The notes: generated by a model from the letters alone, not told the origin. Counted from the stretch's first letter, positions 31,486-43,587 are shown. The stretch: DNA of 64,000 nucleotides from Vulgatibacter incomptus (GCF_001263175.1 NZ_CP012332.1:924001-988000); one strand, 5' to 3'. Translations and numbers: made by a program.

Positions 31486-33012
31486 TCAGCCGATGATGAA
31501 GTCCTCGACGATGAGCTTGCCCGTGCGGAAGCGCTCCAGGGTGAAGCGGTCGAAGATCTCGTCCTTGGCGCCGCCGGCCATCCACGTGGCCATGGCCTCG
31601 GTGACGGCGGGGGCCATCATGAAGCCGTGGCCCACGAAGCCGTTGAGCTGGAGGAGGTTGGGCAGCTCCGGGGTCTCGCCGAGGATCGGGTTGTTGTCGG
31701 GCGTGTGGTCGTAGCAGCCCGCCCACTGGCGGATGACCTTCACGTCGCGCAAGGAGGGCACGCAGTCGATGATGGCCTTCGAGTAGCGCGCCAGGAAGCG
31801 CAGGGTGGAGCCCATCTCGAGGCCGGCGGGCTCGTTGGGATCGCCCATGCCGCCGACGATCTCGCCGCGCATCGACTGGCTGAAGTAGAGGCCGCTGTGC
31901 CCGATGATCGAGACGAGGGGCCCGAGCCACGGCTTGAGGGGCTCGCTGCTGCAGATCTCGTGGCGGTGCGGCTCGTTGGGGAGCTCGACGCCGGCGAGCC
32001 GCGCGACGCCGGGAGACCACGCGCCGGCGGCGTTGACGAGGACGTTGCAGCGCACGGTGCCGCGGTCGGTGCGGACGCCGAGGACCTTGCCGCCGCCGGT
32101 CTCGATGTCGAGCACCTTGGTGAAGGTCTCGACCCGGACGCCGAGCTTCCGGGCGCCGTTGGCGTAGCCCCAGAGGAAGGGCCAGGGGAAGACCACGCCG
32201 TCGTCGGGGTTGAAGGCCGCCGCGACGAACTTGCCGCCGTCGAGCTGGGGGACGATCTCCTTGGCGCCGCCAGGCGAGAGCATGCGCGTGGGGACGCCGA
32301 GGCTGTTGTGGAGGCGGGTGTTCTGCTCGAGGCGATCGGCCTGCTCCGCGTCCGGCGCGAGGAAGAGGTAGCCGCCCTGGCGGAACCAGACGTTGATGCC
32401 GAACTCCCGCGCGAACGAGCGGCAGAGCTCGATGGAGCGCTTCGCGAGGCGGACGTTGGTGGCGGTGGACCACTGGGCGCGGACGCCGCCGCCGTTGCGG
32501 CCGGAGGCGCCGCTGCAGAGGTAGCCCTCCTCGAGGACCAGGACGTCCTTGCGCCCGAGGCGGGCGAGGTTCCAGGCCAGCGAGAGGCCCATGATGCCGC
32601 CGCCGACGATCACGACGTCGGCGTGGGCCGGGAGCGGCTCGGTGGGCCGAAGGGGGTGGGACTCCGCCTTCGGGAAGCCGTCGGCCTCCACCTGGTCGTA
32701 GGGCTCGATCGGCGGGGGAACTCCGGGCCCGGGGACCTCGGTCGGATCCACCGGCCAGGTCGCGAGCTCGCCGTAGGAGACGAGGCGCGTGGGCGGGCGC
32801 GGCGTGAAGGGGAGGAGGGCGGAGTGGGGAACCTTGGCCTCCGCCTCCAGGATCCGGGCGACCGCAGCGGTGCAGCTCTTTCCCTGGCAGAGGCCGGTCC
32901 CGAAGCCGGTGAAGCGCTTGACCGACTCGATGTCGCGGAAGCCCTTGGCGATCGCGTGGCGCACGTCGTCGACGGTCACGTCCTCGCAGGTGCAGACGAA
33001 AGCCTTGCTCAT
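31486..33012 (-). CDS. BFD-type [2Fe-2S] domain fused to DAO-family FAD dehydrogenase (beta subunit)
   Basis: The protein is 508 aa. The N-terminus is a BFD-like [2Fe-2S] module with Cys7, Cys9, Cys42 and Cys47 (CTCED...LCQGKSC). After a Pro-rich linker comes a D-amino-acid-oxidase-type domain with ADVVIVGGGIMGLSLAWNLA (FAD site 137-142) and SGRNGGGVRAQW. It resembles HcnC, sarcosine oxidase beta and hydroxyproline dehydrogenase subunits. Its start overlaps the stop of the alpha gene (ATGA). In HcnB-type systems the BFD module sits on the other flavoprotein; here it has moved to this subunit. Substrate probably an amine or imino acid, not determined. Confidence 0.88.
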   Translation of the reverse strand: MSKAFVCTCEDVTVDDVRHAIAKGFRDIESVKRFTGFGTGLCQGKSCTAAVARILEAEAKVPHSALLPFTPRPPTRLVSYGELATWPVDPTEVPGPGVPPPIEPYDQVEADGFPKAESHPLRPTEPLPAHADVVIVGGGIMGLSLAWNLARLGRKDVLVLEEGYLCSGASGRNGGGVRAQWSTATNVRLAKRSIELCRSFAREFGINVWFRQGGYLFLAPDAEQADRLEQNTRLHNSLGVPTRMLSPGGAKEIVPQLDGGKFVAAAFNPDDGVVFPWPFLWGYANGARKLGVRVETFTKVLDIETGGGKVLGVRTDRGTVRCNVLVNAAGAWSPGVARLAGVELPNEPHRHEICSSEPLKPWLGPLVSIIGHSGLYFSQSMRGEIVGGMGDPNEPAGLEMGSTLRFLARYSKAIIDCVPSLRDVKVIRQWAGCYDHTPDNNPILGETPELPNLLQLNGFVGHGFMMAPAVTEAMATWMAGGAKDEIFDRFTLERFRTGKLIVEDFIIG

Positions 33013-34337
33013 CCTTCACCTCGAACCGCGAGGAGGGCGACCGCCGTGCGGCCGGCGCCGTCGCCCTGGCGGCGGCTCTCAATTGGCGTACAGGTTCCGG
33101 TCATCTCGCCGCAGGCGAGGACCCCCGGGACGCCGGTGGAGAAGCGCTCGTCCACGCGGACGGCGAAGCCCCCGTCGCGCCAATCGACGTGGGCGCCTGC
33201 GTGCCTCGCGAGGTCCAGGAAGGCCGACGTCTCGCCGGCCACGGCGATGAGGTCGCATCCCACCTTCATCGGCCGGCCCGGACCGTTCGCGATCACCGCG
33301 CCGGCGACCTTCGACCGACCCACGGCCCGCAGGAGCTGGCCCTCGGGGCAGCCTCGCAACCCGACCACCGCGCGGAGCTCGGCGCCTGCGTCGACGAGGA
33401 GCTTCGCGAGGGCGTCCCGCTCGGGTCCGTGGCCCGCGACCACCACCTCGCGGCCCGGCAGGATCCCGTCGCGGGTCACGAGGCGCGCCAGCGCCCGCCC
33501 CGCGAAGACACCCGGGAGCTCGTTGTTCCCGAACGGAGCCAGGAGCTCGGTGGCGCCGGCGGCGAGGATCACGACCTTCGGACGGATCACGAGGAGGCGC
33601 CTGCCGGGAGCCTTCGCCGCCACGAGGATCCCGTCCTCGCGGTAGAGGCCGAAGGCGAAGGTCCGCGTGAACAGGTGTACGCCCGCCTGGCGCAGGGCCG
33701 CCTCGGAGCCGTTCCTCTCGTCGGAATAGAGGCCCGTTTGCAGCCTCCCGCCGGTCGTGCCCTGCTCGTCGACGAGGGTCACCGCCGCCCCGCCGACCTT
33801 GGCGGCGGCGAGGGCCGCGGCGGTCCCCGCGCTCCCGCCTCCGACAACGAGGATGTCGGTCCGGTGCTCGAGGAAGCTCGCGCCTTCCCGCCTCGCCTCG
33901 TCCGGCAGCAGGCCCAGGCCCGCCATCTGCCGGGCCACCGTGGCAACCACCTTCTCCACCAGGGGCACGCCGGCGAAGAGGGTGTGATGGTCGAGGCCCT
34001 TCGGGTACATCCAGTCGATGGTCCGGAAGACGTCGCGGTCCACGCCGGGGAAGGCGTTCTGGCGCTCGATCTTGCAGCCCTCGCGCGCCGGCGTGATGCA
34101 GGTGTAGACGTTGGGCTCGCCGTCGACCCGCATGACGCAGTGGGAGCAGCGGCCCGAGAGGCAGTAGGGCCCCCTCGCCCGGTGGTACTTCACCGCGCGG
34201 GAGAAGACCTCTACGCCGGCAGCCAGGAGCGAGGCGGCGATCGGCTCGCCCTCCTTGGCCGGAATGGGCTCGCCCTCGAACTCGAGCCGGATCTCCCGAC
34301 CGGCGGGACCGCCCGAAAGCCTCTCAGCCTTTGCCAT
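33009..34337 (-). CDS. [2Fe-2S] ferredoxin plus FAD/NAD(P) oxidoreductase (alpha subunit)
   Basis: The protein is 442 aa. The N-terminal Fer2_4 plant-type ferredoxin fold has Cys59, Cys64, Cys67 and Cys80 (YCLSGRCSHC...YTC), as in HcnA and the N-terminus of sarcosine oxidase alpha. The second half is a pyridine-nucleotide-disulfide-type flavoprotein with DILVVGGGSAGTAAALAAAK and a second nucleotide motif EVVVAGHGPERD. It ends with GVLACGEMTG and lacks the aminomethyltransferase domain of sarcosine oxidase alpha. With the next gene it forms a two-subunit flavin/iron-sulfur dehydrogenase that likely passes electrons to the respiratory chain. A role in HCN synthesis is possible but not shown. 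Confidence 0.88.
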   Translation of the reverse strand: MAKAERLSGGPAGREIRLEFEGEPIPAKEGEPIAASLLAAGVEVFSRAVKYHRARGPYCLSGRCSHCVMRVDGEPNVYTCITPAREGCKIERQNAFPGVDRDVFRTIDWMYPKGLDHHTLFAGVPLVEKVVATVARQMAGLGLLPDEARREGASFLEHRTDILVVGGGSAGTAAALAAAKVGGAAVTLVDEQGTTGGRLQTGLYSDERNGSEAALRQAGVHLFTRTFAFGLYREDGILVAAKAPGRRLLVIRPKVVILAAGATELLAPFGNNELPGVFAGRALARLVTRDGILPGREVVVAGHGPERDALAKLLVDAGAELRAVVGLRGCPEGQLLRAVGRSKVAGAVIANGPGRPMKVGCDLIAVAGETSAFLDLARHAGAHVDWRDGGFAVRVDERFSTGVPGVLACGEMTGTCTPIESRRQGDGAGRTAVALLAVRGEG

Positions 34338-34507: not shown

Positions 34508-34535
34508 TTGACGCCATGCATAGTCCGCGCATAAA
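34508..34535 (+). promoter_or_regulatory. Promoter of the arginine operon
   Basis: TTGACG (34508-34513), a 16-nt spacer and CATAAA (34530-34535). The start site would lie within a few bases of the argC ATG (34546). The spacer holds a GCATA direct repeat that could be part of an ArgR site, but no ARG-box consensus is evident. Confidence 0.5.
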
Positions 34536-34545
34536 GATGCGCGCC

Positions 34546-35583
34546 ATGAATGAGCGGGTCGGAGTCATCGGCGCGTCGGGCTACTCGGGGATCGAGCTGA
34601 CGCGCATCCTGGCGGGTCATCCCGGCGTTCGCCTGATCCTGGCGTCGAGCGATCGCTGGGCGGGCGAGCGCGTGGAAGAGGCCTCCCGGATCGCCGGGCG
34701 GGAGCTCCGCTACGTGGATCTGGCCCAGGCCGAGCGCCTCGCCGCCGAGTGCGACGTGCTCTTCCTCGCCACGCCGGCGGACGCGTCCCTGCGGCTCGCC
34801 CCCGCGCTCCTCGAGCAGGGCTGCCGGGTGATCGACCTCTCCGGCGCGTTCCGCATCGATGATTCGGCGGCCTTCGAGCGCTTCTACGGCCTCACCGCTT
34901 CGAACCTCCAGTCCAGCGCCGTCTACGGCCTCCCCGAGCTCTTCCGCAACCGGGTCCACGGCGCGCGCCTGGTGGCGAACCCCGGCTGCTATCCCACCGC
35001 GGCCTCCCTCGCCCTGGCGCCGCTCCTCCGCGAGGAGCTCCTCGAGCCCGACCTGATCGTGAACGCCGCCTCCGGCGTGACCGGCGCGGGGCGGACGGCG
35101 AAGGAGGATTTCAGCTTCGCCGAGGTCGCGGAGGACTTCCGCGCCTACAAGGTCCTGCGCCACCAGCACACGCCCGAGATCGAGCAGACGCTGTCGGGCT
35201 GCGCCGGCAGCGCGGTGAACGTCACCTTCACGCCGCACCTCCTCCCGATCCGCCGCGGGATCCTCTGCACCTCCTACGGCCGCCTCCGGCGCAAGGCCAC
35301 CTCGGAAGAGCTCCGCGCGCTCCTCGAAGAGGCCTGGCACGACGAGCCCTTCGTCGACGTGGCTCCTTCGCCGGACCAGGTCTCGCTCCACCGCGTGGTC
35401 GGCACCAACCGCTGCCTCGTCGGCGTCGCCTGCGAGCCCGAGGTCGGCGGCAGGGTGGTGGTCGTCTCCGCCATCGACAACCTCGTGAAGGGCGCCGCCG
35501 GCCAGGCGGTCCAGAACCTCAACCTCCTCCTCGGCTTCGACGAATCGACGGGCCTGTCCGGCCTTCGAGGCTTCCACCCATGA
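34546..35583 (+). CDS. argC: N-acetyl-gamma-glutamyl-phosphate reductase
   Basis: The protein is 345 aa from ATG 34546 (in-frame ATGs at 34516 and 34537 are upstream alternatives; none has a Shine-Dalgarno). It reduces N-acetylglutamyl phosphate with NADPH, the third step of arginine synthesis. Visible are the nucleotide motif GASGYSGIELTR, the catalytic cysteine in NPGCYPTA, and SGVTGAGR. It is the first gene of the arginine operon. Its TGA overlaps the ATG of the fused argJB gene (ATGA), implying translational coupling. Confidence 0.96.
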   Translation: MNERVGVIGASGYSGIELTRILAGHPGVRLILASSDRWAGERVEEASRIAGRELRYVDLAQAERLAAECDVLFLATPADASLRLAPALLEQGCRVIDLSGAFRIDDSAAFERFYGLTASNLQSSAVYGLPELFRNRVHGARLVANPGCYPTAASLALAPLLREELLEPDLIVNAASGVTGAGRTAKEDFSFAEVAEDFRAYKVLRHQHTPEIEQTLSGCAGSAVNVTFTPHLLPIRRGILCTSYGRLRRKATSEELRALLEEAWHDEPFVDVAPSPDQVSLHRVVGTNRCLVGVACEPEVGGRVVVVSAIDNLVKGAAGQAVQNLNLLLGFDESTGLSGLRGFHP

Positions 35584-37697
35584 ATCTCCCCCTCGGTTTC
35601 ACGTTCTCCGGCGTCCCCTGCGGCATCAAGCCCCACCGCCGGGACCTCGCCCTCGTGGCGAGCGACGTCCCATGCGCCGCCGCCGGCGTCTTCACCGTGA
35701 ACAAGGCGAAGGCCGCTCCCGTGCTCGACGCCGAGGCGAGGCTCCCCTCCGCCGGCGTTCGCGCCGTGGTGATCAACGCCGGCAACGCCAACGCCCTCAC
35801 CGGCAGCGCGGGCCCCGCCGCCGTGGCGCAGGTGCACGCTGCCATCGCCGAGGCGCTCGGCGTCTCTCCGGAGGCCGTGCTCTCCGCCTCCACCGGCGTC
35901 ATCGGCGTGCCGCTCCCCGCGCAGAAGATCGTCGCCGCCGCCCCGGCCCTCGTCGCCGATCTCAAGGCCGACGCCCAGCCCGCGGCCGAGGCGATCATGA
36001 CCACCGACACCCGGAAGAAGCTCGCTTCGCGGGTGGTGCACCTGGGCGGCGCCGAGGTCACGATCGCGGCGATCTGCAAGGGCTCGGGGATGATCGCCCC
36101 CCAGCTCGCGACCATGATCTCGGTGATCACCACCGACTGCGCGATCGCGCCCGAGCTCCTCGCCGGCGCGCTGCGGACGGCGGTGAAGCCGACGTTCAAC
36201 CGGCTCACCGTCGACGACGACATGAGCACCAACGACGCCGTCTTCGCCATGGCGAACGGCATGGCGGGCAACGCGCCCCTCGAGGCGGGGAGCGCGGACC
36301 TCGCGCTCTTCACCGAGGCCCTCTCGTCGCTCTGCGAGGAGCTCGCCAAAGAGATCGCCGCGGACGGCGAGGGCGCCACCAAGCGCCTCGAGATCCGTGT
36401 GAACGGCGCGCCCGACGAGGCGATCGCCGAGGACGTAGCCAAGGCGATCGCGGGCTCCTCCCTGGTGAAGGCGGCGATCTTCGGCGCCGATCCCAACTGG
36501 GGCCGCATCCTCTCCACCGTCGGCGCCCGCGCGGGCTCCCAGGGCTTCGCGATCGATCCCTACGGCGCGAGCGTGAAGATCCAGGACCTCGTCGTGTACG
36601 ACGGCGCCCCCGCCGACGCGGACAAGACGATCCTCAAGGCGCGGATGCGCGAGCCCGAGGTGAAGGTCGACGTCGAGCTCCGCGCCGGCGCCGCCTCCGC
36701 CACCGCCTGGGGCTGCGACCTCTCCTACGACTACGTGAAGATCAACGCGGACTACACCTCGCTGATCGTGCAGACCCCCACCGGCGGCGTGGCCAAGGAC
36801 GAGCGGCTCTCCAACTACAGCCCCGCGTTCAAGGTCTCCCTCCTCGTGGAGGCCCTCGGCTACATCTCGCGCTTCAAGGGCCAGCGCTGCGTCATCAAGT
36901 ACGGCGGCGCGGCCATGACCCGCGAGTCGCTGAAGCGCTCCTTCTGCGAGGACATCCTCCTCCTGCGCTCCGTCGGCCTCTGCCCGATCGTGGTGCACGG
37001 CGGCGGCCCCGACATCACCCGCGCTCTCGAGAAGATGGGCGGCACCGCCGAGTTCATCGACGGCCAGCGCGTCACCCATGCCTCGGATCTCAAGGTTGTG
37101 GAGATGGTGCTCACCGGCTCCATCAACACCGAGCTCGTGACGCTCCTCAACCAGCGCGGCGCAAACGCCGTGGGCCTCTCCGGCAAGGACGCGGCGCTCC
37201 TCGAGGCCAAGAAGCTCGTGCGCGAGGACGGCAAGGACCTGGGGCAGGTGGGCGAGCTCACCAAGGTGAACGCGAACCTCCTCGAGCTGTTGCTGCAGCG
37301 GGACTACGTGCCCGTGATCTCGCCGGTGGGCCTGGGCGAGGGCGGCCACGGCTACAACCTCAACGCCGACGTGGTGGCCGCAGGCGTCGCCGCCGCGGTG
37401 GGCGCGAGCAAGCTCATCTACCTGAGCGACGTGCCGGGGATCCTGGACGGCGGCGAGCTCGTCAGCGAGCTGAACGCCCGCACCCTCCGCGAGGAGCTGA
37501 ATTCCGGCAAGATCTCCGGCGGGATGACCGTGAAGGCGCGCTCGATTCTGCGCGCGCTAGAGGGCGGCGTCAGCGACGTCCACGTGATCGACGGGCGCAC
37601 GCCCCACAGCGTGATCGCCGAGCTCTTCACCGAGCACGGCGTGGGTACGCTCATCCGCGCGGGGGAGGGTGACCCCTCCTTGAAACAGGTGGGCTGA
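35580..37697 (+). CDS. argJB: Fused glutamate N-acetyltransferase / acetylglutamate kinase (ArgJ-ArgB)
   Basis: The protein is 705 aa in one uninterrupted frame. Residues about 1-394 are ArgJ: INAGNANA, TRKK, the self-cleavage site around Thr178 (MIAPQLATMI), and the C-terminal DLSYDYVKINADYT. Residues about 416-705 are ArgB: CVIKYGGAAMTRE, VVHGGGPDI, GTAEFIDGQRVT, and the kinase C-terminus KARSILRALEGGVSDVHVIDG. Only about 20 residues separate them. ArgJ recycles the acetyl group from acetylornithine to glutamate and ArgB phosphorylates the product, which ArgC then reduces. The fusion may channel N-acetylglutamate. ArgJ normally self-cleaves at the Thr, so the mature form should be an ArgJ-alpha chain plus an ArgJ-beta-ArgB chain. 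A 14-nt gap leads to argR. Confidence 0.95.
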   Translation: MNLPLGFTFSGVPCGIKPHRRDLALVASDVPCAAAGVFTVNKAKAAPVLDAEARLPSAGVRAVVINAGNANALTGSAGPAAVAQVHAAIAEALGVSPEAVLSASTGVIGVPLPAQKIVAAAPALVADLKADAQPAAEAIMTTDTRKKLASRVVHLGGAEVTIAAICKGSGMIAPQLATMISVITTDCAIAPELLAGALRTAVKPTFNRLTVDDDMSTNDAVFAMANGMAGNAPLEAGSADLALFTEALSSLCEELAKEIAADGEGATKRLEIRVNGAPDEAIAEDVAKAIAGSSLVKAAIFGADPNWGRILSTVGARAGSQGFAIDPYGASVKIQDLVVYDGAPADADKTILKARMREPEVKVDVELRAGAASATAWGCDLSYDYVKINADYTSLIVQTPTGGVAKDERLSNYSPAFKVSLLVEALGYISRFKGQRCVIKYGGAAMTRESLKRSFCEDILLLRSVGLCPIVVHGGGPDITRALEKMGGTAEFIDGQRVTHASDLKVVEMVLTGSINTELVTLLNQRGANAVGLSGKDAALLEAKKLVREDGKDLGQVGELTKVNANLLELLLQRDYVPVISPVGLGEGGHGYNLNADVVAAGVAAAVGASKLIYLSDVPGILDGGELVSELNARTLREELNSGKISGGMTVKARSILRALEGGVSDVHVIDGRTPHSVIAELFTEHGVGTLIRAGEGDPSLKQVG

Positions 37698-38181: not shown

Positions 38182-39381
38182 ATGGCAAAGCAGAAGATCG
38201 TCCTCGCGTACTCGGGCGGCCTCGACACCTCGGTGCTCGTGCGGATCCTGGGCGAGGAATATGGATACGACGTGATCGCCTGCCACGTGGACGTGGGCGA
38301 GGCGCGCGACAAGGACCTGGTGATCGCGCGGGCGAAGAAGGCCGGCGCCGTCGCCGTCGAGGTCGCCGCGGCGCAGGACGAGTTCGCTCGGGACTTCTGC
38401 TTCCCGGCCCTCCAGGCCAACGCGATGTACGAGGGGATCTACCCCCTCTCCGCCGCTCTCTCGCGGCCGCTGATCTCCAAGCACCTCGTGGCCGCCGCCC
38501 GCAAGCACGGCGCCACCGCCGTCGCCCACGGCTCCACCGGCAAGGGCAACGATCAGGTCCGCTTCGACCTCGCGGTGAAGGGCCTCGCTCCCGACCTCAA
38601 GATCGTGGCGCCCCAGCGCGAGCGGAACATCACCCGCGACGCCGCGATCGAGTACGCCGCGAAGCACGACATCGAGATCCCCGCCACCAAGAAGAGCCCC
38701 TTCAGCGTCGACGAGAACCTCTGGGGCCGCAGCATCGAGGGCGGCGTCCTCGAGGATCCGAACCAGGAGCCTCCCGAGGAGGCCTTTGCCTGGACCAAGA
38801 GCTGGAAGGACGCGCCGAACGAGCCCGCCTATCTGGAGATCGGCTTCGAGGCCGGCAAGCCGGTGAGCGTGAACGGCCAGGCCATGGGCCCCGCCGCCCT
38901 CATCCATGAGGTTGGCCGGGTAGCCGGCGAGAACGGCGTCGGCCGCATCGACCTCATGGAGAACCGCGTCGTCGGCATCAAGAGCCGCGAGCTCTACGAG
39001 TGCCCGGCCGCGGTGGTGCTCATCGCCGCCCACAAGGACCTCGAGCGCTTCACCACCCTGGGCATGTCGCACCGGGTGAAGGCGATGCTCGACACCAAGT
39101 TCGCCGAGCTCATCTACGAGGGCTTCTGGTTCTCGCCGTACCGCGATGCGCTCCAGGCCTTCAACGACGCCCACGATCGCACCGTCACCGGCACCGTGCG
39201 CGTGCGCCTCTTCAAGGGCCACTGCCAGGTGGTCGGCCGCAAGTCGGAGAACGGCATCTACAACCACGCCCTCTCCACCTACGGCGTAGACGACGCCTTC
39301 GATCACCGCGCGGCGGAGGGCTTCATCAAGCTCGTGGGGCTCCAGCTCCAGGAGTACAGCCGCCTCCACTCCGAGAAGTAA
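38182..39381 (+). CDS. argG: Argininosuccinate synthase
   Basis: The protein is 399 aa from ATG 38182 (an upstream in-frame start at 38161 is inside argR and unlikely). It condenses citrulline and aspartate with ATP. Motifs are IVLAYSGGLDTSVL (PP-loop), HGSTGKGNDQVRF and the middle PFSVDENLWGRSIEGG. Its 400-aa length is typical. It is coupled to argR (2-nt gap); a 100-nt gap without a clear regulatory site leads to argH. Confidence 0.97.
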   Translation: MAKQKIVLAYSGGLDTSVLVRILGEEYGYDVIACHVDVGEARDKDLVIARAKKAGAVAVEVAAAQDEFARDFCFPALQANAMYEGIYPLSAALSRPLISKHLVAAARKHGATAVAHGSTGKGNDQVRFDLAVKGLAPDLKIVAPQRERNITRDAAIEYAAKHDIEIPATKKSPFSVDENLWGRSIEGGVLEDPNQEPPEEAFAWTKSWKDAPNEPAYLEIGFEAGKPVSVNGQAMGPAALIHEVGRVAGENGVGRIDLMENRVVGIKSRELYECPAAVVLIAAHKDLERFTTLGMSHRVKAMLDTKFAELIYEGFWFSPYRDALQAFNDAHDRTVTGTVRVRLFKGHCQVVGRKSENGIYNHALSTYGVDDAFDHRAAEGFIKLVGLQLQEYSRLHSEK

Positions 39382-39481: not shown

Positions 39482-40924
39482 ATGATCGCCAAGACCGCCG
39501 CCGCAGGGGGCCCCGGCCTCCACCCGGAGATGCTCGCCTTCTCGAGCTCCCTCGACCTCGACATCGCGCTGCTGCGCGAGGACCTCCTGGGGAGCCTCGC
39601 CCACCTGACGATGCTGTCGCGCTGCGGGATCATCCCGCGCGAAGCGGCTGCCGAGCTCAAGGCCGGTCTCCTCTCCATCCGCCGCGCCGCGGACGACGGC
39701 ACCCTCGAGCTCCCCGCCGAGGAAGACGTCCACATGGCCGTCGAGGCCTGGCTCCACGCCAACGTCGGCGCCGCCGCGGGCCTCCTCCACACCGGCCGCT
39801 CCCGCAACGATCAGGTCGCCGTCGACCTCAAGCTCCACGTTCGCGAGCAGGTCCTCGTCATCCGCGAGGCGCTGGCCAGGCTCGTCCTCCTGCTCGTCGA
39901 GCGCGCCGAGGGCGGCCTCGAGACGCTGCTGCCCGCCTACACCCACCGGCAGCGCGCCCAGCCCGTCAGCCTCGCGTACTGGTACGCCTCCTACGCGGCC
40001 ATGGTCGTCCGCGACCTCGACGCCTTCGCCTTCGTGCAGGATCAGGTCGACTCCATGCCCCTCGGCGTCGGCGCAATCGCTGGCACCACGCTCCCGAACG
40101 ATCGCGAGATCCTCCGCGGGCTCCTGGGCTTTACGCGGATCACGGTGAACGGTCTCGACACCGTGGGTGACCGCGACTTCGCCCTCGACTACGCCTACGC
40201 CGCCGCGCGCTTCCTCCTGCACGCCAGCCGCCTCTCCACCGACCTCGTCGACTTCACCTCCGCCGAGTTCGGCTTCGCCAAGCTCGACGACGAGATCGCC
40301 TGCGGCTCCAGCATGATGCCGCAGAAGAAGAACCCCGACGCCTTCGAGCTCGTCCGCGGCAAGAGCGGCAAGGCCGTCGGCAACCTCGTCAACCTCCTCG
40401 TCACGGTCAAGGGCCTCCCCGGCGGCTACAACCGCGACCTGCAGGAGGATCGCGGCCCCCTCCTCGAGACCGGCAAGCTCGTCCGCGGCGTCGCCTCGAT
40501 CCTCCAGCTCGCGCTCCCGCGCGTTCACTTCCAGCCCGAGCGCTGCCTCGCCGCCCTCGAGGCCGACGCCACCCAGGCCACCGATCTCGCGGAGGCGCTC
40601 GTGAAGAAGGGCCTTCCCTTCCGCACCGCCTACCAGGCCGTGGGCAAGCTCGTCCGCGCCTGCCAGGAGCGCGGCCTGCCCCTCGGCAGCGCCACCCCCG
40701 AGCTCGCCGCCAGCGTCGACCCCGTCTTCGACGCGGCCACCCTCGAGGCCGCGAGCATCAAGGGCGCACTCGCCCGCAAGCAGAGCGCCGGAAGCACCGG
40801 CCTCGAGCCCGTGCGGGCCCAGCTCGCCCAGCTCCGTGCCCGCGCCGACGCCGAGCTCGGCGCCGTTGCGAAGCTGCCGCGCCTCGACGCGCTCTTCGCG
40901 TCGCTCGAAGCCGCGGCGCTCTGA
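39482..40924 (+). CDS. argH: Argininosuccinate lyase
   Basis: The protein is 480 aa from ATG 39482 with GAGGAAG closely upstream. It splits argininosuccinate into arginine and fumarate. The fumarase/aspartase superfamily signature GSSMMPQKKNPD is intact, as are HTGRSRNDQV and the YTHRQRAQPVS segment. It ends the operon. argA/argD/argF-type genes are not in the window and must lie elsewhere. The gene is extremely C-rich at third positions. Confidence 0.97.
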   Translation: MIAKTAAAGGPGLHPEMLAFSSSLDLDIALLREDLLGSLAHLTMLSRCGIIPREAAAELKAGLLSIRRAADDGTLELPAEEDVHMAVEAWLHANVGAAAGLLHTGRSRNDQVAVDLKLHVREQVLVIREALARLVLLLVERAEGGLETLLPAYTHRQRAQPVSLAYWYASYAAMVVRDLDAFAFVQDQVDSMPLGVGAIAGTTLPNDREILRGLLGFTRITVNGLDTVGDRDFALDYAYAAARFLLHASRLSTDLVDFTSAEFGFAKLDDEIACGSSMMPQKKNPDAFELVRGKSGKAVGNLVNLLVTVKGLPGGYNRDLQEDRGPLLETGKLVRGVASILQLALPRVHFQPERCLAALEADATQATDLAEALVKKGLPFRTAYQAVGKLVRACQERGLPLGSATPELAASVDPVFDAATLEAASIKGALARKQSAGSTGLEPVRAQLAQLRARADAELGAVAKLPRLDALFASLEAAAL

Positions 40925-43215: not shown

Positions 43216-43218
43216 ATG
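43172..43218 (+). promoter_or_regulatory. Structured leader able to mask the Kazal start codon
   Basis: Three alternative pairings are visible. First, a 9-bp hairpin GCCCCCGAC/GTCGGGGGC (43181-43199). Second, GGGGGC (43194-43199) with GCCCCC (43210-43215), leaving the AGGAGG in a 10-nt loop. Third, CATGGGG (43172-43178) with CCCCATG (43212-43218), which includes the start codon. The first two are mutually exclusive. Translational control is inferred. Confidence 0.45.
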
Positions 43219-43587
43219 AAGTGGCTCACTTTTCTCGCGGTTGCGTTCACCTTCGCGTTGTCCGCGCCGAGCTCCGCCGCCGCCAGCACTTGCGTCATCG
43301 ACTCGAAGAACGCCCGCTGCATCTGCCCGATGCACTACGACCCCGTCTGCGGCATGGATGGCAGGACGTACGGCAACTCCTGCGATGCGGGTTGCGAATG
43401 CATGAGCATCGCCTACGCCGGAGAGTGCGACGACGCGTGTACGAAGTCGTGTGACGGCACTGCCTACGAGCCCGTCTGCGGCGTGGATGGCAAGACCTAC
43501 GGAAACGACTGCTACGCCGAGTGCCTCGAAGTGAAGGTCGAGTACGAAGGCGCGTGCCAGGTGGCCTCACCGCTTCCGCACGGCTGA
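43216..43587 (+). CDS. Secreted double-Kazal serine protease inhibitor
   Basis: The protein is 123 aa from ATG 43216 with AGGAGG at 43201-43206. It has a signal peptide cleaved near Ala23. Two Kazal domains follow (about 26-71 and 75-114) with YDPVCGMDGRTYGNSC and YEPVCGVDGKTYGNDC; 14 cysteines are present in the mature part. In the first domain the residue at the canonical P1 position is Met, which suits chymotrypsin-, elastase- or subtilisin-like targets. In the second domain the loop is one residue longer, with Gly/Thr there. It is exported and not lipidated. It could protect against the cell's own or a competitor's proteases; the target is inferred. Confidence 0.9.
   Translation: MKWLTFLAVAFTFALSAPSSAAASTCVIDSKNARCICPMHYDPVCGMDGRTYGNSCDAGCECMSIAYAGECDDACTKSCDGTAYEPVCGVDGKTYGNDCYAECLEVKVEYEGACQVASPLPHG

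Follow-up and report, generated by a model that had tools for sequence, protein, structure and literature searches.

The fused ArgJ–ArgB protein of Myxococcota keeps its arginine site and recurrently loses kinase residues

Introduction

In Vulgatibacter incomptus, ArgJ and the NAG kinase ArgB are encoded together in one open frame, argJB, which raises the question of what the ArgB half does behind ArgJ. An initial annotation had treated the fusion as a local case and had proposed that it could hand N-acetylglutamate from ArgJ to ArgB and affect feedback inhibition by arginine. Here we describe the locus, its relatives and the residues that have been kept or lost in each half.

Results

A single-frame fusion within an arginine operon

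The window, the whole 64,000-nt stretch of V. incomptus DNA that was analysed (NZ_CP012332.1:924001-988000), holds argJB as one open frame of 705 aa at 35580-37697 on the + strand (protein P0001). The gene, its parts and its neighbours are as follows.

34508..34541, +: putative argC promoter (inferred; TTGACG at 34508-34513) and ARG-box-like palindrome (34528-34541)
34546..35583, +: argC, N-acetyl-gamma-glutamyl-phosphate reductase (TIGR01850, 384.8 bits)
35580..37697, +: argJB, fused ArgJ–ArgB, 705 aa (domain profiles; 144 fused loci)
35580..36110, +: predicted ArgJ alpha chain, residues 1-177 (homology to 1vra_A and 3it4_A, alignment through residue 177)
36111..36761, +: ArgJ beta part, residues 178-394, starting with the nucleophile Thr178 (homology; invariant or nearly invariant columns)
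36762..36824, +: interdomain spacer, residues 395-415, 21 aa (same length in all fused homologues; low AF2 confidence)
36822..36869, +: ArgB N-helix, residues 415-430, with Tyr428 equivalent to TmNAGK Tyr15 (AF2 helix; TmNAGK alignment)
36825..37694, +: ArgB (NAG kinase) domain, residues 416-705 (catalytic set intact; argB profile)
37620..37649, +: arginine-site motif ELFTEHGVGT, residues 681-690, which fits E-(L/I)-(F/M)-(T/S)-x-x-G-x-G-T (PMC4490483, PMC3236213)
37712..38179, +: argR, arginine repressor (PF02863, PF01316; TIGR01529 at 125.6 bits, slightly below the cut-off of 130.45)
38182..39381, +: argG, argininosuccinate synthase (TIGR00032, 482 bits)
about 39482..40924, +: argH, argininosuccinate lyase (TIGR00838, 441.7 bits; start at ATG 39482 or TTG 39470)

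Pfam placed ArgJ (PF01960) at residues 9-394 of P0001 with 453 bits and AA_kinase at 436-671, and both halves exceeded curated NCBIfam cut-offs (ArgJ NF003802, 452 bits against 351; argB TIGR00761, 241.3 bits against 151.3). The gene is the sole ArgJ match in the finished V. incomptus genome of 4,350,553 bp. The single-frame fusion seen in the initial annotation is thus borne out, as are its domain limits (ArgJ 9-394, ArgB 416-705), with the "about 20" residues between them being exactly 21, and its setting in the order argC-argJB-argR-argG-argH, to which the neighbours' profile matches attest. The 3' end of argC shares 4 nt (ATGA) with the start of argJB. A sequencing error at the junction that hides a stop codon or frameshift is effectively excluded, because the junction recurs, with an identical spacer length, in 144 fused open frames. 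An internal start yielding free ArgB was rejected: the junction has no conserved start, with no ATG, mixed GTG/GTC at V404 and no SD-like run.

Thr178 aligned with the first residue of the solved ArgJ beta chains 1vra_B and 3it4_B. Like stand-alone ArgJ (1vz6, 3it4), argJB has the whole ArgJ domain, the cleavage site and the conserved active-site columns, among which T105, G106, K167, E264 and N389 are invariant. Asn389-Ser394 aligned with the C-terminal end of the solved beta chains; those chains stop at the position that matches 393-394, just where the argJB spacer starts. Homology thus predicts, as proposed before, that cleavage at Thr178 would leave ArgB on the ArgJ beta chain. In one clade (L037-L041 and L076-L085; genera g19, g28, g34, g41 and g42) the nucleophile is Ser (LASTIA) and ArgJ has an insertion of ~20 residues near 345; a separate second ArgJ, ~41% identical, is present in most genomes of this clade.

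Elsewhere in the window, inspection by eye identified a small protein that looks secreted and carries two Kazal-like repeats (PVCGxDGxTYGNxC) at 43216-43587 (+) and, divergent from argC, two overlapping frames resembling subunits of a sarcosine/hydroxyproline-type FAD oxidoreductase at 31486-34337 (-).

Pathway setting and control by ArgR

Profile searches of the V. incomptus genome found ArgF and no ArgE above cut-off, and classical ArgA exceeded its cut-off in 1 of 145 genomes of the order. ArgJ is therefore likely to be both the entry and the recycling enzyme on the route to ornithine, and probably leads to new N-acetylglutamate; the scarcity of classical ArgA suggests a bifunctional ArgJ that uses acetyl-CoA. 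The single genome with classical ArgA above cut-off (L187, G128:C149) also has a degenerate ArgJB.

Clusters of the argCJBDFRGH type in Corynebacterium and Mycobacterium have the order argC-J-B-R-G-H with argR inside, as here; in V. incomptus, however, argJ and argB are fused, and argD and argF lie outside the cluster. An ARG-box-like palindrome, CGCATAAAGATGCG, lies at 34528-34541, 14 nt downstream of TTGACG and a few bases 5' of the argC ATG. Its pattern has a single match in the 64 kb (0.01 expected), and YGCATN4ATGCR occurs upstream of argC in 54 of 87 relatives with fused loci (0.02 expected by base shuffling). We take the TGCAT-N4-ATGCA shape to resemble the E. coli ARG box. With this candidate operator at the argC promoter and its counterparts in relatives, argR probably controls the operon in which it lies, an earlier suggestion that gains support here; such control is ordinary for clusters of this kind.

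The fusion is widespread in Myxococcota

A search of relatives, which the initial annotation had called for, yielded 144 fused loci encoding 100 distinct proteins, all in Myxococcota, so that what had been regarded as a local case extends over a large part of the phylum. Searching 145 genomes of the same order and retrieving loci from the results yielded 78 fused frames; further loci were added from a phylum-level search and a linker scan. The linker scan covered 84,980 species genomes with a single peptide pattern, which would miss unlike linkers elsewhere; every record that it matched was either named as a myxobacterium or carried a former deltaproteobacterial or proteobacterial label, as holds for all named records among the fused loci. 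The fused gene is absent from some genera of the order, which have stand-alone ArgB matches only. Nearly all fused genes are adjoined by argC and/or argR.

Stand-alone ArgJ fell outside the fused clade in the ArgJ tree (SH-aLRT 99) and stand-alone ArgB did so in the ArgB tree (SH-aLRT 97), both being quick trees without bootstrap. With both halves monophyletic, one fusion event would be the simplest reading.

Two further candidates were rejected. Matches in a plasmid collection that spanned both halves pointed to fusions in other phyla, but both loci fetched (Acetoanaerobium, Paenibacillus) proved to be separate frames. Open frames of ~1040-1060 aa in several relatives resembled a triple ArgC–ArgJ–ArgB fusion, but these are just GC-rich open frames, because argC lies in another frame. 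One genome carries a second, more degenerate argJB beside the usual copy (L042, G074:C66), with no adjoining argC or argR match, and in another (L033, G040) the argJB frame breaks within ArgB, through either assembly error or real decay.

The arginine site persists where catalytic residues are lost

The arginine site of NAG kinases comprises a Tyr of the N-helix, a Lys of the central sheet and the motif E-(L/I)-(F/M)-(T/S)-x-x-G-x-G-T (PMC4490483, PMC3236213). P0001 has all three, as Y428, K611 (TmNAGK K196) and residues 681-690, and by these features its ArgB half is classed with the arginine-sensitive, N-helix type. Hexameric arginine-sensitive NAG kinases (TmNAGK, 2bty; PaNAGK, 2buf) share the N-helix and arginine-site residues with the fused ArgB at 44-48% identity; they stand alone, whereas the fused ArgB sits behind ArgJ and is catalytically degenerate in many relatives. 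Y428, K611, H668, E681, F683, T684, G687 and G689 are invariant in all untruncated in-frame fused copies, a count that leaves aside the frame-broken L033 and L040, which is cut by a contig end.

The catalytic residues K8, G44, G45, R66, N158, D162 and K217 of EcNAGK, with roles taken from PMC3236213, correspond to K440, G475, G476, R497, N593, D597 and K652 of P0001. The complete set, KGGRNDK, is present in the window copy, the f2 family and G138. The Anaeromyxobacter-like family has KGARSDK, and its copies with N158S/G45A may retain kinase activity. Other fused lineages have RGGLDDR, KES-PDK, REG-ADK, GAV-HEL, YIA-ADK and more; YIA-ADK belongs to G144, the only other genome of the window organism's family. 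At least seven changes of state between intact and degenerate are needed on the ArgJ tree. Two degenerate relatives scored 118.5 and 112.7 bits with NCBIfam argB, short of its cut-off of 151.3. Degeneration is not an assembly effect, because single-contig genomes (G043, G047, G048 and G075) are among those with degenerate copies, as is the isolate Archangium lansinium.

Eighty-one ArgB columns are invariant in intact copies. In the 40 strongly degenerate copies, all 8 arginine-site columns are kept, none of the 7 catalytic columns is, and 19 of the 66 others are; with relatedness ignored, the hypergeometric probability is 7e-5. The invariance could partly reflect needs of the fold or oligomer. 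The 27 formerly invariant columns that survive in degenerate proteins, glycines and N-helix positions included, are possible fold or hexamer contacts and would suit an ArgB half that acts as an oligomer or stability domain for ArgJ without arginine signalling. We nevertheless consider a purely structural part unlikely, as none of the known arginine-contact positions tested (K611, E681, Y428 and the loop) is missing from the surviving set, whereas decay falls on the active site. The window copy has its catalytic residues in place, and its ArgB half probably works as a NAG kinase that arginine inhibits.

A spacer of fixed length

ArgJ residue 394 and ArgB residue 416 are separated by 21 residues in every fused frame, even in those with just 41-46% ArgJ identity; the consensus of the region is IVxxPDGGVAKDDRLxNYSPxFK. 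A flexible tether, by contrast, would be expected to vary in length.

AF2 models of the window protein and a degenerate relative had mean pLDDT values of 83.6 and 82.3, respectively. The best PDB match of the ArgJ half was ornithine acetyltransferase 1vz8 in both proteins, and the fold of the ArgB half was closest, again in both, to arginine-bound TmNAGK (2bty) and PaNAGK (2buf). A helix at 415-430 precedes the kinase core, with Tyr428 aligned to TmNAGK Tyr15. Confidence in the window model is confined to the individual domains, being low over 383-422 with a spacer pLDDT <50 and a pTM of 0.57; we set aside its domain arrangement, the linker falling below pLDDT 50.

These results bear on the proposal of channelling, in which N-acetylglutamate is handed from the ArgJ to the ArgB active site, the two being held near each other by the fusion. 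ArgJ and ArgB are consecutive in the acetyl cycle, and no catalytic residue is missing from either half in the window copy, the f2 genomes or G138. However, a tether for channelling need not have one fixed length, and the fusion and its exact spacer outlast the kinase residues, so that many relatives probably lack a working kinase that could receive the product. Channelling is therefore quite unlikely to be why the fusion exists; it is possible in the window copy, because the kinase residues there are intact.

A second kinase, ArgB2

V. incomptus has a second ArgB, ArgB2, at 3184439-3185287, adjoining argC2 (the pair at G000:C1:3184439-3186424; L086:6437-8424, - strand). ArgB2 shares 35% identity with the fused ArgB and occurs widely in the order. 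Its homologues begin right at the kinase core, without the N-helix and without the ELFTxxGxGT motif, so by sequence ArgB2 is of the arginine-insensitive type. It scored 201.8 bits against NCBIfam argB, above the cut-off of 151.3; an assignment as a LysW-type kinase was rejected, the LysZ-type cut-offs not being reached. Near the argC2-argB2 pair lie an AstA-like arginine/ornithine succinyltransferase gene (L086:1209-2450, +) and, beside it, a gene for an ArgE/DapE-like deacylase (L086:2-1396, +), both below the specific cut-offs.

In genomes with a second ArgB match, 65 of 74 fused proteins are degenerate and 9 intact; in those without, 8 of 21 are degenerate and 13 intact. Five of these eight come from genomes <90% complete with genus or family mates that have ArgB2; the other three are G051 (98% complete, 7% contaminated), G093 and L131. 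A pairs test of ArgB2 presence against kinase decay gave three supported independent comparisons and was not significant with relatedness considered. With only these three comparisons, the association is a pattern, not proof, and ArgB2 is possibly the main kinase where the fused ArgB has decayed.

It is improbable that the degenerate ArgB halves remain kinases that act through a rebuilt active site or on another substrate. The KES-PDK group keeps K440, D597 and K652, and the K-to-R changes of the RGGLDDR group are conservative, but in many copies the R66 loop is shortened or gone, HGGG has become HGES, and N158 and the D181 equivalent (D617) are changed, at sites that in EcNAGK bind ATP phosphates or NAG (PMC3236213). 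Equally improbable is a fusion without special role, fixed once through stop loss between operon neighbours and inherited vertically: argJ and argB adjoin in many arginine operons and the monophyly of both halves fits one event, but spacer length should then vary and a useless domain be lost, neither of which is seen among 100 distinct proteins.

Discussion

We consider it probable, from the conservation described above, that of the two jobs of the fused ArgB, kinase and arginine sensor, it is the sensor, feeding back on ArgJ, that is always kept. The argJB polypeptide would cleave itself before Thr178 into an alpha chain (1-177) and a beta–ArgB chain (178-705), and the family-wide job of the fused ArgB would be to bind arginine and signal to the ArgJ active site. 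In NAG kinase and NAG synthase, the N-helix shifts when arginine binds (PMC4490483, PMC3329491); in argJB, a lever running from Asn389-Ser394 through the fixed 21-residue segment to the N-helix (415-430) could carry the arginine signal. Cleavage, arginine binding, the effect on ArgJ and the lever are all steps that we infer. In the window organism, the ArgB half would be both kinase and sensor, and arginine would control the first two steps together; in lineages with ArgB2, catalysis could pass to ArgB2, the fused ArgB surviving as a sensor only. That Myxococcota captured ArgB as a C-terminal sensor of ArgJ, which in several lineages became a pseudokinase after ArgB2 took over catalysis, is a history that we favour slightly. 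The earlier proposal that the fusion could affect arginine feedback gains support.

A close parallel is ArgA (AAK and GNAT; N. gonorrhoeae, P. aeruginosa), which likewise joins an N-acetylglutamate-making enzyme to an arginine-binding NAG-kinase-like domain and conserves E-(L/I)-(F/M)-(T/S)-x-x-G-x-G-T (PMC4490483). In ArgA an N-terminal AAK domain is joined to a GNAT enzyme; in argJB the AAK domain is C-terminal and the enzyme is ArgJ, a self-cleaving protein of the Ntn type. ArgA pairs a dead NAG-kinase domain with an acetyltransferase, and here a parallel design is built on ArgJ; the two designs are convergent, because their acetyltransferase parts are unrelated. The argJB protein may work in an ArgA-like manner, yet it is not an ArgA, because profile searches found no GNAT domain in P0001. 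For ArgA, PMC4490483 indicates that linker length matters for inhibition, a longer linker abolishing it (citing its ref. 41); the argJB spacer is fixed at 21 residues. The bifunctional NAGS/K of Maricaulis and Xanthomonas and the yeast NAGK/NAGS metabolon have a GNAT/DUF619 acetyltransferase part where argJB has ArgJ. The argH(A) fusion of marine gammaproteobacteria (PMC1382215) also links an N-acetylglutamate-making part to another arginine-pathway enzyme, but with other enzymes on both sides and no AAK sensor domain.

The ArgJ and ArgB families and acetyltransferase–AAK fusions have been described before; a fusion built on ArgJ, with recurrent kinase decay, seems to be absent from the literature searched. 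That search, which lay largely outside subscription journals, found no report of an ArgJ–ArgB fusion and no description of an ornithine acetyltransferase allosterically controlled by a built-in amino-acid-kinase sensor.

If the sensor model is true, argJB would be the ArgA design invented a second time, independently and with an unrelated enzyme, and one phylum would hold living intermediates (intact, N158S/G45A and strongly degenerate) in the passage of a catalytic domain to a regulatory one. It would predict that arginine inhibits ArgJ enzymes of the fused type. In many myxobacteria it would also be a mistake to annotate the fused genes as NAG kinases.
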